From a virus: a stretch of DNA of 40,197 nt. The stretch spans positions 1 to 40,197 of the IMG/VR virus record IMGVR_UViG_3300033571_012915; one strand, given 5' to 3'. Below, one piece after another: positions 5,425 to 16,874 of this stretch. Numbering within the stretch: position 1 is the stretch's first letter; each line of letters opens with the position of its first letter. The notes beneath the pieces were generated by a model that was given only the letters and a program-made list of their open reading frames with translations, was not told the DNA's origin and did not search any database. The position numbers and the translations under genes are program-made.

Positions 5425-5474
5425 GCTCAGTCTGCATCGCCCTTGCCTTCCTAGATGGTGGGGTGAGATGGTGA
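5421..5474 (+). CDS. Possible 17-codon leader peptide before methyltransferase 1
   Basis: ATG 5421 has GGAGG in good position and overlaps the previous stop as ATGA. The 17-codon frame (MSSVCIALAFLDGGVRW) ends 6 nt inside the methyltransferase start at 5468. It is probably a translational relay that delivers ribosomes to the methyltransferase, not a functional protein. Confidence 0.35.
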   Translation: MSSVCIALAFLDGGVRW

Positions 5475-6238
5475 CCCATCTGTCACTATTTTCTGGAATC
5501 GGAGGCATCGACCTCGCAGCTCATTGGGCTGGATTCCGTTCGGTAGGAATGGTTGAGCGAGAACCATTCTGCAAGCAAGTCCTCGCGAAGAACTTCCCAG
5601 GAGTACCAATATTTGATGACGTTAAAGAATTCGATGGATCGCAGTTCAGAGGGGTCACGCTTGTCAGCGCAGGCTTCCCTTGCCCTCCCCACTCAGTTGC
5701 AGGAAAACGCCTTGCGTCTCGCGATGAGCGTGACCTGTGGGGTGACGTGGTCAGGATACTGGGGGAAGCGAAACCTAGATGGTTCGTGGGAGAGAATGTG
5801 TCAGGAATCCTTACCTCTGAACATGGACGATTCTTCGGACGAGTGGTGGATGACTTGGTGTCGATGGGGTTTCGTGTCGGATGGTGTATGTTTGGAGCTT
5901 GCGACGTTGAAGCTCCCCACGAAAGAGACCGAGTCTTTATACTTGCCCACTCCGACAACGAGTCAGGACTACAAGCCGATCCGTCAGCTCACTCCGTCCG
6001 AGAGTATGGGGAGTCATGGGAAGTCTCTTGTCGGAGCGATTGGGGACATATTCGGAATCAAAACTGGGACAGGGTATCGGTTAAACCCACAATTCACAGA
6101 GATGATGATGGGTTTTCCAAAGGACTGGACGAAAGTAGATTGAAAGCACTTGGCAATGCTGTTGTGCCGCAGCAAATTCTTCCAATTATGAACGCGATAT
6201 CACATATTGAATCGCGACCACAAGGAGAAACGAAATGA
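5468..6238 (+). CDS. Cytosine-C5 DNA methyltransferase 1
   Basis: A 256-residue Dcm-type enzyme. Motif I (LSLFSGIGGIDLAAHWAGF) binds AdoMet. Motif IV (SAGFPCPPHSVAGKR) carries catalytic Cys72, with Pro-His where Gln-Pro-Phe is usual. Motif VI is GENVSG, motif VIII ERDRVFILA and motif X ALGNAVVPQQ. The target-recognition region between VIII and X is only about 70 residues, much shorter than in typical enzymes, and that DNA also encodes another frame. No restriction endonuclease is adjacent, so it is an orphan enzyme, probably protecting phage DNA from host restriction. The ATG at 5468 is chosen because motif I begins at once and the upstream frame is the shadow of the previous gene. Confidence 0.88.
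   Translation: MVTHLSLFSGIGGIDLAAHWAGFRSVGMVEREPFCKQVLAKNFPGVPIFDDVKEFDGSQFRGVTLVSAGFPCPPHSVAGKRLASRDERDLWGDVVRILGEAKPRWFVGENVSGILTSEHGRFFGRVVDDLVSMGFRVGWCMFGACDVEAPHERDRVFILAHSDNESGLQADPSAHSVREYGESWEVSCRSDWGHIRNQNWDRVSVKPTIHRDDDGFSKGLDESRLKALGNAVVPQQILPIMNAISHIESRPQGETK
5553..6143 (+). CDS. Nested +1-frame ORF inside methyltransferase 1
   Basis: An open frame of up to 196 codons wholly inside the methyltransferase gene, in the +1 register. The C-terminal 75 residues do not look like noise: LPTPTTSQDYKPIRQL, then GSHGKSLVGAIGDIFGIKTG and RLNPQFTEMMMGFPKDW. From memory, phage and methyltransferase-linked proteins often carry W/LPTPT...LNP.F..W.MGFP..W segments. The first 100 residues are less convincing, so the functional product may start later, or the segment may be reached by frameshifting from the methyltransferase. 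The TTG start at 5553 is only the first possible one. The function is unknown; it might supply the recognition part missing from the short host frame. Confidence 0.45.
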   Translation: MSENHSASKSSRRTSQEYQYLMTLKNSMDRSSEGSRLSAQASLALPTQLQENALRLAMSVTCGVTWSGYWGKRNLDGSWERMCQESLPLNMDDSSDEWWMTWCRWGFVSDGVCLELATLKLPTKETESLYLPTPTTSQDYKPIRQLTPSESMGSHGKSLVGAIGDIFGIKTGTGYRLNPQFTEMMMGFPKDWTKVD

Positions 6239-7332: not shown

Positions 7333-7636
7333 GTTAACTCAGAACCAGATTGACGACATCCGGCACACGCTCGGGTGGAGCCACACGCCAAAGGTCAACA
7401 AGCTAGGTTGGCGCAACTACTACTGGACAAAGGAGCAACTGCCAGAGCTTGACGATCTCGTAGCCAAGGGTTTTATGGTTCGGCATCCAATCAACCCAAT
7501 CTATCAGGTGACCAAGGCGGGAGCAAAAGCAATCGGCATGAGCGACAAGCGGATTAAGAAACTTGGAGACGTGTTGCAAGACCCACGCCCAACCCCCGAA
7601 GGCATGAAGCAGGTGTGGCCGGAGGTGGAGGGTTGA
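7325..7636 (+). CDS. Early protein of unknown function, possible winged-helix (103 aa)
   Basis: A 103-residue basic protein. The arrangement of helices and a strand pair (YYWTKEQLPELDDLVAKGFM then HPINPIYQVTKAGAKAIGM) resembles a winged-helix module of the kind that ends with a V-T-x-x-G-x-x-A pattern. Its stop codon abuts the ATG of the nested frame at 7637, and its tail contains GGAGGTGGAGGG, a strong ribosome-binding site for the next gene. Confidence 0.65.
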   Translation: MGELTQNQIDDIRHTLGWSHTPKVNKLGWRNYYWTKEQLPELDDLVAKGFMVRHPINPIYQVTKAGAKAIGMSDKRIKKLGDVLQDPRPTPEGMKQVWPEVEG

Positions 7637-8577
7637 ATGGCTTGGTACAACGAGTTCGACCCCAGAGCGGCGGTGTGGCTCCAATCCCTAGCGGACGGGT
7701 TGACACAAGATCAATTACAGAGCTTCGACCCGAGGACATTCCAGATTCCGGTCAGTGCCACTTCTTTGCCGGAATTGGAGGCTGGGGCCTTGCTTTTAGA
7801 CTTGCAGGGATCTCAGACGATGCCCACGCCTGGTCAGCAAGTCTGCCATGCCAGCCGTTCAGCATTGCAGGACAAAGAAGGGGACGTGAGGACGACAGAC
7901 ACCTGTTTCCAGTCTTCTATGAGCTTGTGCGAGTCAAGCGACCTCCAATCATTTTTGGAGAACAGGTTGCGTCAGCGGATGGACTTGAATGGCTCGCCGG
8001 AGTACACACTGCAATGGAAAACGCGGGTTACCTCTTCGCATCTGCCGATCTGTCAGCTGCGAGCGTCGGGGCGCCGCACGTCAGGCAAAGACTCTACTGG
8101 GGCGCATGGTTACCCGGCAGTGACCTGCAACACCGCAACGTGGACATCGGACGGGTTTGGGGACAATTTGCACGAAGCGGCAACCAAGCTGATGGGTTAT
8201 CCAACGGTGCGAGCGACGGGCGCATCCAGCACAACTCGGGAGGATTTCACGGACTCTCTGCCGGAGATTGCGACCAAACTCTTAGGCTACTCAACCCTAT
8301 CGGCATCGGATGCTCAGGGGAGCCACGGTGGAGGGCAGGGGTCGTCGGCCAGAACGGATGCCCAGATAGTGACGCATGGGGCGACCACTTCCAAGCCTGG
8401 GCAGACGGCACCACGCGGCGCACTGAACCCGGACTTCTGCCGCTGGCTCATGGGTTTCCCGAGAGAGTGGGTCTTATACGGGGCTTTGGCAATGCAATCG
8501 TCCCGCAAGTCGCCAAGGTCTTCATTGAAGAGTTCTGGGACGCCTGTATTGACTATCAACAAAGAGGCAGACAATGA
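7615..8577 (+). CDS. Cytosine-C5 DNA methyltransferase 2 (N-terminus probably frameshifted)
   Basis: Motif I (CHFFAGIGGWGLAFRLAG), motif IV (ASLPCQPFSIAGQRRGRE, catalytic Cys79), a variant motif VI (FGEQVAS), motif VIII region (GAPHVRQRLYWGAW) and motif X (GFGNAIVPQVAKV) identify a phage-type C5 enzyme distinct from the one at 5468. Homologues I recall begin with a YNE.DP.AA.WL helix. Here that helix is coded in the next frame (7637..7696), and a one-base slip at GGG 7697..7699 would join it to VDTRSI in this frame. Without the slip, translation must use GTG 7615 or GTG 7675. The catalytic core is complete either way. No endonuclease is nearby. Confidence 0.85.
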   Translation: MAGGGGLNGLVQRVRPQSGGVAPIPSGRVDTRSITELRPEDIPDSGQCHFFAGIGGWGLAFRLAGISDDAHAWSASLPCQPFSIAGQRRGREDDRHLFPVFYELVRVKRPPIIFGEQVASADGLEWLAGVHTAMENAGYLFASADLSAASVGAPHVRQRLYWGAWLPGSDLQHRNVDIGRVWGQFARSGNQADGLSNGASDGRIQHNSGGFHGLSAGDCDQTLRLLNPIGIGCSGEPRWRAGVVGQNGCPDSDAWGDHFQAWADGTTRRTEPGLLPLAHGFPERVGLIRGFGNAIVPQVAKVFIEEFWDACIDYQQRGRQ

Positions 8578-8587
8578 CCCCGATTGA
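7637..8587 (+). CDS. Nested +1-frame ORF over methyltransferase 2
   Basis: A 316-codon frame overlapping almost the whole methyltransferase in the +1 register. It has the best translation signal here: ATG directly after the previous stop, with GGAGG. Residues 1..20 (MAWYNEFDPRAAVWLQSLAD) look like the displaced methyltransferase N-terminus. The later part holds NGSPEYTLQWK, SHLPICQLRASGRRTSGKD, repeated motifs KLMGYPT and KLLGYST, and LNPDFCRWLMGFPREWV near the end. I recall similar proteins as hypothetical partners overlapping phage C5 methyltransferases. The function is unknown. The product could be a separate protein or a frameshift fusion. Confidence 0.5.
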   Translation: MAWYNEFDPRAAVWLQSLADGLTQDQLQSFDPRTFQIPVSATSLPELEAGALLLDLQGSQTMPTPGQQVCHASRSALQDKEGDVRTTDTCFQSSMSLCESSDLQSFLENRLRQRMDLNGSPEYTLQWKTRVTSSHLPICQLRASGRRTSGKDSTGAHGYPAVTCNTATWTSDGFGDNLHEAATKLMGYPTVRATGASSTTREDFTDSLPEIATKLLGYSTLSASDAQGSHGGGQGSSARTDAQIVTHGATTSKPGQTAPRGALNPDFCRWLMGFPREWVLYGALAMQSSRKSPRSSLKSSGTPVLTINKEADNDPD

Positions 8588-10773: not shown

Positions 10774-12288
10774 TTAGGGGTTCAGGCAGCCAAAGGCTCG
10801 GAATCCAGTCGTCTGAGTTTTGGATGGCAACAGTGCTGAGATGGTTGCTCCACCGTTGACACAGTTTTTGTGCGCCGGGTGCGTTCCATCGTTGGTCGCC
10901 GATGCTGTCGTTCCAGTAGGAGCAAGCCATCCGCCTACTCCGTCCGAGACCTTGTTCCAAACAGATTCGCCGCGAGTGTTCTTGGTTTGCCAGAGGCGAG
11001 TGCAGTCAATCCACCATGCGCCGAGTTCGGCACAGACACGATTGAGCATTGCTCGTTCTGCATCAAGGATAGCGTCGGCCCCACCTGCAATCAATGTGTT
11101 GTAGGTTGGCGTCTGTGCGTCCCTGAACGCCGATTCTGAAAGGGTCAAGTCCCAAGCAGTACCGCCACCAGTCCAAGTGGTTTGTAGCGGATCCAGTCGG
11201 AGCCAAGTTCGACGACCGTAAAGCCGATCTTCTGCGATGACTTGACGGACACATTGCTCAAGAGCGCTGATGTAGTCCACTAAGACGAAGCCAGAAGAAG
11301 CTGCCGCTCGTTCGTTGATGCCCAGCCCGTAAGAACGGTTGGACGCCTGGATTGACTTGCGAATCCCTGCGCGAAGCTGGAACCGCTGCGGGTCGTAGTA
11401 GTTCGTTCCACCGCCGCCGAGGTTGTTCAGCACCGTCTGGCGATATTGATGGAAGATTGTCGCTCCAGACTCTGCCATTCCAAACCAAGGAATAGCGTTG
11501 GCTGAGTCGCCAGGACGTGTGAGCGCCCACTGCATGGTCGAGCACGCGCCGTCGTAGTCGCGAGAGAGCCTAGTGGCGTCTTGTACTGCAGTAACCCACC
11601 AGCCGGTTCCGCCATAGTCCAGCGAGTTACCTTCGATGATCCAAGCGTTGGTCTCCGATGTGGTTTCAAGGAAGACAAAGCCAGGGTACGAACCGTTGGC
11701 CCCAGCGACGATCGAGGTCCCCGTAAGGAACGTAGTCATGTCGCCAACAACTGCCACAACGTCCGAGGAACAGTTAGCAAATTGGTTCCCAAGACGGCAC
11801 GGATTACATTCCCCGTTCTTGGTTGAGCCAGACGCCCGGATCAGTCCAGTGAGAATCTTGATCGTGTCGCCCGAAGAGCCAGAATATGCCTTACGAGTGT
11901 AGAACTGAAGCCCCGAATCAAGAGGCTGGTCGGTTCCGCCGCGCAGGTTGGTAAAAGCCCCTTGGTTCGACGCGCCGACGACGAGGTAAGACGTGACGTT
12001 GGGGATTTCAAGAGGGGATGCGTAGTCTACGTTGTTTGGGTTGACTTCACCAGCGTTGACCTTCAGCCCCGTGATGCTGTGGGCAAGTACAACCGCAGAG
12101 TACGCCGCTGTAGCTGTTGCTTGAAGGCTATGCTTTGCGCCGTAGTTGGACGCCGCCGTGTGGTTAAGGACCGAACCTTCCACAAGGGTTTGGTTGAATG
12201 CAGGGATCAGCCGCTTTGTTCCGGATGTGATCGACGGGACTGAGACTGATACGGTTTGCCCTACTCCGTTTGTTGGAATTGCTGGCAT
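10774..12288 (-). CDS. Tail-tip SGNH/GDSL-type hydrolase, putative receptor-binding protein
   Basis: A 504-residue protein at the end of the tail gene run. The C-terminal 290 residues carry SGNH landmarks: block I WIIEGNSLDYGGTGWW (Ser222), an Asn in a block-III-like YGLGINE (Asn325), and block V NDGTHPAHKNC (Asp467/His470). Enzymes of this fold remove acyl groups from sugars or lipids, so the protein probably deacetylates a surface polysaccharide during adsorption. The N-terminal 200 residues have a Cys-rich patch (ECNPCRLGNQFANC) and are likely the attachment domain. The active-site order is right, but the spacing is long, so alternatives remain. Confidence 0.72.
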   Translation of the reverse strand: MPAIPTNGVGQTVSVSVPSITSGTKRLIPAFNQTLVEGSVLNHTAASNYGAKHSLQATATAAYSAVVLAHSITGLKVNAGEVNPNNVDYASPLEIPNVTSYLVVGASNQGAFTNLRGGTDQPLDSGLQFYTRKAYSGSSGDTIKILTGLIRASGSTKNGECNPCRLGNQFANCSSDVVAVVGDMTTFLTGTSIVAGANGSYPGFVFLETTSETNAWIIEGNSLDYGGTGWWVTAVQDATRLSRDYDGACSTMQWALTRPGDSANAIPWFGMAESGATIFHQYRQTVLNNLGGGGTNYYDPQRFQLRAGIRKSIQASNRSYGLGINERAAASSGFVLVDYISALEQCVRQVIAEDRLYGRRTWLRLDPLQTTWTGGGTAWDLTLSESAFRDAQTPTYNTLIAGGADAILDAERAMLNRVCAELGAWWIDCTRLWQTKNTRGESVWNKVSDGVGGWLAPTGTTASATNDGTHPAHKNCVNGGATISALLPSKTQTTGFRAFGCLNP

Positions 12289-13607: not shown

Positions 13608-16600
13608 TTAGGGTTGGCGCGTCCAAGTGCGCCCTTCGTCGGTCGAGAACCAAGCCGATGGAGAAGACTCCCCGTCGATCATGGGACACCAGGTCCATTC
13701 GTTCAAGTTGCTGAATGCTGATGCGACGTTGCACATCCCGCCTTCAGCGACCGAGATCGGTGAGCCTCCGGATTCAAATGTAAATTCGCTCGACCATGAG
13801 GATTCACCAGCCCGTCGGTACTGCCCTTTGGCGGTTCCTGGTCCTGACGTCCCTGAGTCGAATTCGAACCAGCATCTGAAGCGGTCGTCGTTGTTGTGGT
13901 TTGTTGCGGTGAAGAAATCAACCATATCTGTTCCGATCGACACCGGAGCTTCCCAGGTCGATCCGTCGTCCGTCGTGTAGGTGTAGAAGACTTCGTTTGT
14001 GGTGGTCTGGTAGTAGAGCTCAAACCGCATGAACACGGCATCGTAATCAAACGCCGCCTTCAGAACGTCGCCAGATGTTGAGACCTGCACGTCGATGAGG
14101 AAGCCTCCGGCTGACCGAGTATCTTCCGACCGCTTGTACCAAACATCGTTGTCCTTGATGTAGGCGATGTGGAGCCGTCCGAAGTAGTCCTGGACGATGT
14201 ACGATCGACCGAACGCGGCATCTGCAAACTTGAAGACGTTCGCAGTTCCACGCCAAGGCCTCATCGAGAACCACTCGGTTCCGTTCCACTTCAAAACCCA
14301 GTCCTGGCTTTCGTTGTTATCCACCGGACCAGAGAACTCCCGAGCCGTCCATCCTTCTGGCGATGCGATGACTCCCAGATGATCAGCACTTGCGTGCCAA
14401 AGCTGTGGAGCGATGTTCCCAGGGACGATGTGAGGTTGTTGATTGCAGATGTCCGAGAAGGCAACCTGCGAATAAGCGCCGTCGGCGATCCATCCGTCTG
14501 CGGTTTCCCGAAGAGGCTCAGGCATGTGCGCCAGAGGCGGAAGCGACCGATAAGAGTTTAAGTACCAGAAGCGCGGACCAACGTCGGAGCGAACGACCCC
14601 GGACAAGGAATCAACAGTTACGTTGTCATCCTCGTCCTTGTATCGCCAAAGGTGTTTAGTGACACCTGCGGGATATTCCTCATCCTCGACGTACTCCGCA
14701 GCCATCCGAGTCGCAAGCCCATCAAGCGCATCCTTGCCACGCAAGAAGTTGTTCTCCCAGCACCACAAGTCGCCGATCGTGGTCTTAGTGAACACTTCCG
14801 CCGTCGGAGTTGGCACGTTGATCGGAGCGTCGGCAAGCCAGTCGTAATAGTTCAGAACGCCATAGCGAACCATGGGGCCGTTCTTAAACAGGATCGTTGA
14901 GAAGTGTCCGTTCTCGTGATAGACCTCGGCGTCAGCGAATGGAGCTTGGTGGAACGTCGGATGCTCAATAGTCACCGGAGAGCCTGAGCTAATCCGAGTG
15001 ATCAGAATTCGAATCTTGACCGGCGAGAATCCAGGAAGCAACCCAAACGAGCTAATCCGCTCATTGTCGGCAAGCGTGGCTGATGTCGTATCGTCTGCAC
15101 TGACTCCCGCATCCGGTGTGTAGTCGTCCGTCAGGTAACCAGCACCAAATTCAGATCCGGCGGACGTCACCCATTTTTCAGCATTGCCAAACGGAATTCG
15201 GTAGATTTGCCCACTGGTGATCCCGGCTGGCTCTCCGATCTGGACTTCTGTTCCGTCGGCGCCTACGGCATAAAGCCGGATGAAGTCGATGTTTGTATCA
15301 GTCCAGTTGAGCTCAATCCGGTCCGAGAGCGTCGTCACCATGTAAGGGAACACGGTGAACGATGACATGTCGAACTCAATTGCATCCCCGGTGGTCAGAG
15401 TGATCGTTGATGTGACCGAACCAACTCCTGGCGATGCCCCGTCCTTGAACGTGAAGCGAGTTGCCGAAGTCGAGTCAGTTGTGAACTCAGTCGGGAACAC
15501 TTCGTCTTCAATGTCAAATCGGCAGATTCCCCACCATTGAGGCAAGCCAAGAAGCGTCTCGGCAAGAACTTGAATCCGGTTCTGAGTGATCGGCTCCGTT
15601 GTGACATTAACCCGCCGCCGAGTGTTCTCTCCACTTGGAAGACTTGGATGGGTCGCATGCTGTTGGCGAACTTGATACCAGTAGTCGATGTCCGCATCGG
15701 AACCAAGCAAGTCCCACCGAACGCTAGATGAGGACGAATCTGGAGGAAACCAAAGGGCAAACGACCAATGCGGGTTTGCCCAAGTGTTCCAAAGCCGAAC
15801 AAGGTTCTCCGGATGCCCCGCGAGACCGTTACACATCTGGGAGTTGTCCAGCATGGTGTCGATGGTTGACGGGAAATACTGGATTTTCTTGTTGGTGTAG
15901 GTAGGTGATCCGGACGTTGTGCGCCCCGTAGCGTTGGAGTAGTACGGCGCATAGGTCGCATATCCAAAAGGCTCCTCGATAGTCGTCCCTGCGGTGTTTT
16001 GAACGTCCTGGAGGTACTGAGTCAGACGAGGGTACAGTTCGTCGGTCTGGTTGACCACGACACTGTACGGAGGGTCAGGAACAACCGCCGGCGCCGCGCA
16101 GCTCTCTTCCGCGTACCGTTCGCACTTCGGGAATCCAAACCTGGTTACCAAGGCTTCGTAGGAAGAAGGGAACCTCGTCAGAGACTTGGAGAGGTCAGGC
16201 CATGCACCAACCCACGACCAGGATTGAGCAGGGAAAGCCCCTTTTGCCACCATGCTCCAAGTGTTGTCGCCACTCGGAACAACGTCCGGGGCCGAGGCAG
16301 GGCAGGAGAGACCCAACGAGCCGACCGTGTCCAGAGTGACCGGGAATGTCCGGTATGCAGTTCGGTGAAGGTAGCGAAAGCCTCCGGTGTTTGTTCCCGT
16401 GAACCCGTAGACTGATGGGTCAACTCCGACGATAGGAGCGATGCCAAAGAGCGGGATTGAGGAAGGCACCGAGACCATTCCGCCGTTGACTGCGCCACTA
16501 CCAAGAGTCGTTACCGTTGAGCCGTTGACATTGACGTCGATCGACGACCAAAGAACCCTAAATGCTCCGTCGACTTCGAAGATCTGAAAGTCATTGACGA

Positions 16601-16874
16601 CCGCGATGAGCTCGCAGTCCAGTGTCCCGCTGATGGTGTTTGTCCAGGAGACAGGTCCGCAGTTAACGCTCAGATAGGTTTCGTCGATCGAGAGCGTGTC
16701 CGCCCGTCGAAGAGTGACCCCGACCCCGCAACCAGCGGACATTGTCACATAGTCAGCCGTGTAGTAGAAGCTGGTGTAGGCAGGGAAGTAGGCGTCGGCC
16801 GGGCTGGTGTACGTCGCCGAAGCCGAGCTTTTGATTTCCAGCTTGGGAGCCGAGAAGATGAGACCTGACAGCAT
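13608..16874 (-). CDS. Large tail protein with C-terminal Asp-box (BNR-like) repeats
   Basis: A 1088-residue protein, largest of the window. The middle contains several beta-rich domains. At about 968 and 1077 it has Asp-boxes (TDDGSTW and STDEGRTW), the S-x-D-x-G-x-T-W turns that mark beta-propeller blades in sialidases and other carbohydrate-binding proteins. It lies directly below the hub gene and above the fibres, so it is probably a tail-tip or side-fibre protein that binds host glycans. The catalytic residues of a sialidase are not visible. TAATG overlap with the preceding small gene. Confidence 0.72.
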   Translation of the reverse strand: MLSGLIFSAPKLEIKSSASATYTSPADAYFPAYTSFYYTADYVTMSAGCGVGVTLRRADTLSIDETYLSVNCGPVSWTNTISGTLDCELIAVVNDFQIFEVDGAFRVLWSSIDVNVNGSTVTTLGSGAVNGGMVSVPSSIPLFGIAPIVGVDPSVYGFTGTNTGGFRYLHRTAYRTFPVTLDTVGSLGLSCPASAPDVVPSGDNTWSMVAKGAFPAQSWSWVGAWPDLSKSLTRFPSSYEALVTRFGFPKCERYAEESCAAPAVVPDPPYSVVVNQTDELYPRLTQYLQDVQNTAGTTIEEPFGYATYAPYYSNATGRTTSGSPTYTNKKIQYFPSTIDTMLDNSQMCNGLAGHPENLVRLWNTWANPHWSFALWFPPDSSSSSVRWDLLGSDADIDYWYQVRQQHATHPSLPSGENTRRRVNVTTEPITQNRIQVLAETLLGLPQWWGICRFDIEDEVFPTEFTTDSTSATRFTFKDGASPGVGSVTSTITLTTGDAIEFDMSSFTVFPYMVTTLSDRIELNWTDTNIDFIRLYAVGADGTEVQIGEPAGITSGQIYRIPFGNAEKWVTSAGSEFGAGYLTDDYTPDAGVSADDTTSATLADNERISSFGLLPGFSPVKIRILITRISSGSPVTIEHPTFHQAPFADAEVYHENGHFSTILFKNGPMVRYGVLNYYDWLADAPINVPTPTAEVFTKTTIGDLWCWENNFLRGKDALDGLATRMAAEYVEDEEYPAGVTKHLWRYKDEDDNVTVDSLSGVVRSDVGPRFWYLNSYRSLPPLAHMPEPLRETADGWIADGAYSQVAFSDICNQQPHIVPGNIAPQLWHASADHLGVIASPEGWTAREFSGPVDNNESQDWVLKWNGTEWFSMRPWRGTANVFKFADAAFGRSYIVQDYFGRLHIAYIKDNDVWYKRSEDTRSAGGFLIDVQVSTSGDVLKAAFDYDAVFMRFELYYQTTTNEVFYTYTTDDGSTWEAPVSIGTDMVDFFTATNHNNDDRFRCWFEFDSGTSGPGTAKGQYRRAGESSWSSEFTFESGGSPISVAEGGMCNVASAFSNLNEWTWCPMIDGESSPSAWFSTDEGRTWTRQP

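Follow-up and report, generated by a model that had tools for sequence, protein, structure and literature searches.

The locus considered here raises the question of whether the DNA of a phage cytosine C5 methyltransferase (MTase), MTase 2, also encodes a second protein in the +1 frame and, if so, what that protein contributes. The window, by which we mean the whole stretch of DNA analysed, is a virus record of 40,197 bases, recognizable as a temperate phage by its integrase, CI-like repressor, terminase, and portal genes; on its minus strand, large open reading frames of 1088 aa (13608-16874) and 504 aa (10774-12288) have no PHROG match. In DNA phages, dual coding over long distances on one strand is regarded as rare. 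An initial annotation, made from the sequence alone, described a 316-codon frame nested in MTase 2, with an ATG right after an upstream TGA and a GGAGG upstream of it, and the frame is present exactly as described. The same annotation read it as a second gene, regarded such dual coding as rare, and suggested that the product could be a recognition subunit, an inhibitor, or a partner of the enzyme. The features on which our analysis rests are collected in Table 1.

Table 1. Positions of the two MTase genes of the window, their nested +1-frame genes, and the motifs carried by each frame
Feature	Position	Strand	Basis
MTase 1 (alpha polypeptide), motifs I-VIII and X	5468-6238	+	PF00145 2e-40; alignment
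AGGAG upstream of internal ATG 5616	5599-5603	+	sequence
Nested +1-frame gene of MTase 1, 175 aa, normal internal start ATG 5616	5616-6143	+	phrog_1008 8e-18 (ORF from 5553)
Motif IX LNPQFTEMMMGFPKDW, nested frame of MTase 1 (C-terminal end)	6081-6128	+	sequence; alignment
MTase 2 (alpha polypeptide) frame	7615-8577	+	PF00145 1.6e-15, phrog_363 7e-50
Nested +1-frame ORF (beta-like protein), 316 codons, fused to MTase N-terminus	7637-8587	+	phrog_1008 5e-21
Displaced MTase 2 N-terminus MAWYNEFDPRAAVWLQSLADG with its GGAGG/ATG start	7637-7699	+	phrog_363 positions 10-30; relatives' consensus
Junction, 22 nt missing versus relatives (8 nt for invariant 30)	7690-7700	+	spacer count in relatives
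Motif I QCHFFAGIGGWGLA, MTase frame	7753-7794	+	sequence; invariant alignment columns
Catalytic PCQ of motif IV, MTase frame	7846-7854	+	sequence; alignment
N-module of nested protein (SDLQSFLENRL...YTLQWKTRVTSSHLPICQLRASGRRT), helix + beta hairpin	7925-8071	+	AF2 block; conserved W, K, LRAS
Motif VIII VGAPHVRQRLYW, MTase frame	8065-8100	+	sequence; alignment
Nested-frame repeat 1 LMGYPTVRATG, equivalent to LxGWPTPTAxD repeats in relatives	8189-8221	+	alignments
Nested-frame repeat 2 LLGYSTLSASD	8279-8311	+	alignments
Motif IX LNPDFCRWLMGFPREW, nested frame	8423-8470	+	hhalign to canonical C5 motif IX, bridged by in-frame relatives
Motif X FGNAIVPQVAKVFIEEF, MTase frame; GN codon 38 nt after nested MG codon	8485-8535	+	hhalign; codon spacing

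The +1 frame of the window's MTase 2 has 0 stops and stays open for up to 296 codons (p about 0.01). Synonymous shuffles in which the main-frame amino acids and codon usage are retained average 4.25 stops, with a longest run of 133 codons; by the same measure the +2 frame is ordinary. In relatives of the enzyme the longest +1 run is 290-300 codons versus about 150-160 under synonymous shuffling, and openness is individually significant in 84-86% of their genes for the +1 frame and in 0-4% for the +2 frame. Against a profile of relatives from which the window was left out, the nested frame of MTase 2 scores 204.3 bits, compared with 69.9 +/- 10.4 bits (maximum 102) for 500 synonymous shuffles, and that of MTase 1 reaches 89.8 bits, above all 500 of its shuffles (39.9 +/- 6.8). 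The phrog_1008 profile matches the MTase 2 nested frame (5.1e-21) from position 42 to 279 of 329, so that most of the family is covered.

As the two MTases of the window have no close relatives (one, for MTase 1, stands at 40%), selection was measured in relatives only. For 33 independent pairs, nested dN/dS was computed given a main-frame nonsynonymous change; it amounts to 1.28 ahead of the nested start, 0.50 in motifs IV-VIII, 0.62 [0.49-0.78] in the recognition region (an approximate value, the alignment being gappy there), 0.20 [0.10-0.33] at motif IX, and 1.01 after motif X. Constraint on the main frame extends over all these regions, in each of which the +2 control lies above 1. Conservation of the alternative frame in excess of the shuffles is close to zero in the MTase N-terminus and concentrated between motifs IV and IX. 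It climbs to 4 BLOSUM units per column at QLNPAHSRWLMG, a segment in which conservation of the nested frame exceeds that of the main frame. Judged by these comparisons of sequence, the DNA of MTase 2 is double-coding and the nested gene is real: synonymous shuffles, two-frame dN/dS, and the internal starts described below show purifying selection on both predicted products and none in the +2 control. The second protein proposed by the initial annotation is thus upheld by its phrog_1008 match, the shuffles, and dN/dS, and both of the checks which that annotation put forward, frame conservation among homologues and dN/dS in each frame, came out positive in the relatives.

The nested gene appears to be tied to its MTase wherever it occurs. 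Three scans, two with the nested alignment (of viral contigs and of GTDB genomes) and one of viral contigs with the MTase alignment, yielded 240 loci. Matches to the nested profile overlap a C5-MTase in the +1 register in 249 of 250 cases, the remaining one being a fragment in the window's own MTase 1, and no stand-alone nested protein was found among the 250; the nested ORF is likewise present in all 49 further MTases that were recovered only by way of the MTase. When 2.9 million viral contigs were searched with the DNA pattern for LNPxFVEWLMGFPxGW alone, 50 of the 53 loci lay over an MTase at +1; of the other three, one (L274) falls at a contig end, one (L307) has its ORF interrupted by a stop, and one (L282) is a copy in frame. 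By tblastn, the +1 protein matched 192 phage records, all below 60% identity; among the annotated matches listed nearly all are labelled methyltransferase genes, and an MTase was present in another frame at each locus examined. A family consensus peptide, composed for the search, matched 546 phage records, of which 407 are mycobacteriophages. The family occurs in phages of Paenibacillus, Microcystis, Porphyromonas, and Synechococcus, on a Leptospira plasmid, and in mycobacteriophages. These counts bear out the earlier statement that related frames overlap phage cytosine MTases elsewhere. The accompanying view that the arrangement is rare does not hold within this enzyme group, for which M.EcoHK31I also provides a two-polypeptide precedent.

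The initial annotation took the ATG at 7637 for the nested gene's own start and the best start signal of the region; comparison with relatives shows it to be the start of the MTase. Residues 1-21 of the nested ORF (MAWYNEFDPRAAVWLQSLADG) align to the MTase-family N-terminus (phrog_363 positions 10-30), the consensus of which in relatives is MxYYNEIDPxAAAWLRxLI, and the conserved nested protein proper lies downstream of about 7700. In relatives the nested gene has its own internal start some 30 codons inside the MTase gene: a +1-frame ATG shortly before motif I is found in 156 of 180 relatives versus 34 expected from synonymous shuffles, and one with an SD sequence in 113 of 180 versus 8 expected, while the same test in the +2 control frame gives 7 observed and 7 expected. 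This internal SD/ATG is absent from the window's MTase 2. The spacing from L..L to VDxRS is exactly 10 residues (30 nt) in 171 of 172 relatives and 8 nt in the window; with 22 nt lost, the frame is shifted, and the MTase's own SD/ATG at 7637 therefore reads into the nested frame. The MTase 2 frame itself retains GTG 7615 or TTG 7633 as candidate starts. A single-base sequencing slip as the origin of the fusion is ruled out, since the difference amounts to 22 nt.

MTase 1 of the same phage has the same layout, so that the phage carries two double-coded MTases, one with the normal internal start and one fused. Motif IV of MTase 1 (window 5660-5700) reads GFPCPPHS, compared with GFPCQPHS in relatives such as L262, i.e. 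PCP for PCQ.

The conserved motifs of C5-MTases are divided between the two frames. Alignment of relatives places motifs I, IV, VIII, and X all in the MTase 2 frame, the N-terminal half of which is the part matched by PF00145. According to hhalign, the nested C-terminus aligns only to motif IX of canonical C5-MTases (E 6e-4, and 3.5e-4 for the wider family). These direct matches cover just 18-19 columns at 29-37% probability and depend on a bridging family. Over the same DNA, the main frame matches motif X and nothing else (E 9e-4), its C-terminus giving no match to the motif IX that a single-chain C5-MTase would have, and the +2 frame gave no alignment to canonical C5-MTases. The bridging set comprises 46 loci identified by PxFVEWMMGLPxGWVT, in 43 of which the element is in frame with motif X; its profile aligns with canonical motifs IX and X jointly (65 columns, 93.6%, E 2e-7) and with the nested motif IX (E 3e-11 and 1e-15). 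In nested-class genes the MG codon stands 38 nt before the GN of motif X in 162 of 167 cases (36 of 48 in the wider set), as against 66 or 69 nt in in-frame genes, and a frame-changing indel must therefore separate the two states.

Several arrangements of this kind coexist. In the window, the main frame has motifs I-VIII and X and the nested frame the repeats and motif IX. Relatives of actinobacteriophage type show three other layouts: motifs I-VIII, IX, and X in the main frame and the repeats nested (L375 and L399); motifs I-VIII in the main frame and the repeats, IX, and X nested (L390, L392, L395, L413, and Ovechkin); or the repeats, IX, and X in the MTase chain and a shorter nested N-module (L377 and Phasih). 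The N-module remained nested in all loci inspected, including those with motif IX in the MTase frame, which suggests that the role of the nested protein goes beyond carrying motif IX. Searches of Pfam, NCBIfam, and PDB with the nested protein or its alignment returned nothing meaningful. AF2 models of the nested proteins are poor (pLDDT 60 and 57.5) and, at this low confidence, gave no match in Foldseek; the helix and hairpin of the N-module are best predicted (pLDDT mostly 81-91), and a helix is placed at motif IX of the MTase 1 nested protein. Poor models with a confident N-module would suit a protein that folds on its partner.

Taken together, these observations suggest that the nested protein is probably the second subunit (beta) of a two-polypeptide C5-MTase of the M.EcoHK31I type, fused in this phage to the start of the first. 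Alpha would be the large C5-cytosine MTase polypeptide with motifs I-VIII and X, and beta, from the +1 frame, would combine the conserved N-terminal module with motif IX and, across the recognition region, the PTP-type repeats. Most likely the two chains come together as a single active enzyme, in which beta would supply motif IX in trans and probably also part of the DNA-recognition lobe, as in M.EcoHK31I; both the complex and the need for both chains are inferred. Of the roles offered by the initial annotation, recognition subunit or partner would fit best, given that the nested frame has the motif IX that the MTase frame lacks; an inhibitor fits less well. In relatives, translation of beta would start at an SD/ATG of its own, some 30 codons into alpha. 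Here, the 22-nt loss in the alpha N-terminus would have ended that arrangement, the alpha start codon now leading into the beta frame, and alpha of MTase 2 would have to begin at GTG 7615 or TTG 7633, without the conserved N-terminus. A wider reading, to which we give about an even chance, is that a large and old group of phage C5-MTases has its coding spread over two overlapping frames, between which the recognition repeats and motifs IX and X migrate by frame-changing indels. One stretch of DNA would then set both the catalytic chain and its recognition partner, and the 22-nt deletion would have left this phage with a beta bearing the N-terminal tail of alpha.

Other explanations can be offered at three levels, i.e. 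the existence of the second protein, its function, and the integrity of the fusion. The +1 frame might be open and conserved merely through the MTase frame and its GC-rich codons, with no second protein being made. The main frame does constrain the nested one in part, as shuffled sequences still score 70 bits, but the comparison with those shuffles and the conserved internal SD/ATG, with the +2 frame as a negative control, together with a nested dN/dS of 0.16-0.62 that is confined to the overlap, make this highly improbable. If the protein is made, it could be an independent product (an inhibitor, a regulator, or a counter-defence factor) overprinted on the MTase gene, with a resemblance to motif IX that is coincidence or relic. 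The persistence of the nested N-module where motif IX is in the MTase frame, and the lack of a structural link to MTases in the PDB search and in AF2 with Foldseek, would agree with such a product. However, it was never found apart from a C5-MTase in the profile and DNA-motif scans, the nested frame has motif IX at the very place where the MTase frame is devoid of it, and in relatives IX and X switch between frames, so that we regard an independent role as rather improbable.

For its part, the fusion at the MTase start could be an assembly or sequencing error in a metagenomic contig, the true gene having the normal spacer and an internal nested start. The near-invariant spacer of relatives speaks for an error, as does the harm expected from a frame-breaking deletion in the MTase N-terminus. 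On the other hand, the difference is larger than a one-base slip, and the SD/ATG of relatives has also gone from the window, as expected after prolonged use of the upstream ATG by the nested frame. We consider an error unlikely, albeit the least unlikely of these alternatives.

The subunit interpretation has a precedent among known systems. Lee, Kam and Shaw reportedly described in 1995 that the gene for the smaller M.EcoHK31I polypeptide (about 176 aa) lies within that for the larger, in a different frame. M.EcoHK31I is a C5-MTase with the specificity YGGCCR, in which the larger polypeptide holds motifs I-VIII, X, and the TRD and the smaller only motif IX (PMC3404938). The likeness to the window is one of motif content, with a large chain that has motifs I-VIII and X without IX and a second chain that has IX, and it extends, given the reported arrangement of M.EcoHK31I, to a second gene in another frame inside the first, the nested ORF of MTase 1 measuring 175 aa. 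M.EcoHK31I differs in being a host restriction-modification enzyme, whereas the MTases of the window are phage-borne and the nested ORF of MTase 2 is fused to the MTase start. M.AquI is likewise a C5-MTase split into two chains; the relatives L390, L392, L395, L413, and Ovechkin resemble it, with motifs I-VIII in alpha and the variable region, IX, and X in beta, though in overlapping frames. The window departs from M.AquI in that motif X lies in the alpha frame rather than in the small subunit, and the chains overlap almost completely. With single-chain C5-MTases of the M.HhaI type, the alpha frame shares motifs I, IV, VIII, and X, but motif IX of the window is in the nested frame, on a separate chain. 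Beyond the M.EcoHK31I precedent, we found no description of nested genes in phage C5-MTases in the open-access literature, which is weak evidence of absence.

Conservation of dual coding in this group spans mycobacteriophages, cyanophages, and prophages of many phyla. Should the enzyme be unable to do without the nested product as a subunit, many phage C5-MTases would look inactive when expressed alone or be assigned the wrong specificity, and the frame changes of motifs IX and X among relatives provide a natural series for the origin and resolution of overlapping genes. Annotation tends to keep one frame and drop the other, or to name both "methyltransferase". The loci of phrog_1008, of the "Mte8-like protein" of K1ind phages, and of N15 gp58 have the same nested family over the same MTase family, but are annotated as "DNA methyltransferase" or hypothetical, with the nested layout and motif IX unstated. 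In K1ind phages both frames are annotated (methylase and "Mte8-like"); in N15 the nested ORF at the gp58 locus is entirely unannotated. In Xanthomonas phage FoX4 (L005, 1480-2205) the nested frame is kept as a hypothetical protein and the MTase frame dropped. The "hypothetical protein" gp70 of mycobacteriophage Ovechkin (L421) corresponds just to the distal portion of a longer +1 ORF (1177-2448), which holds the N-module, the repeats, and motifs IX and X, and its overlap with the methylase gp69 was missed in annotation.
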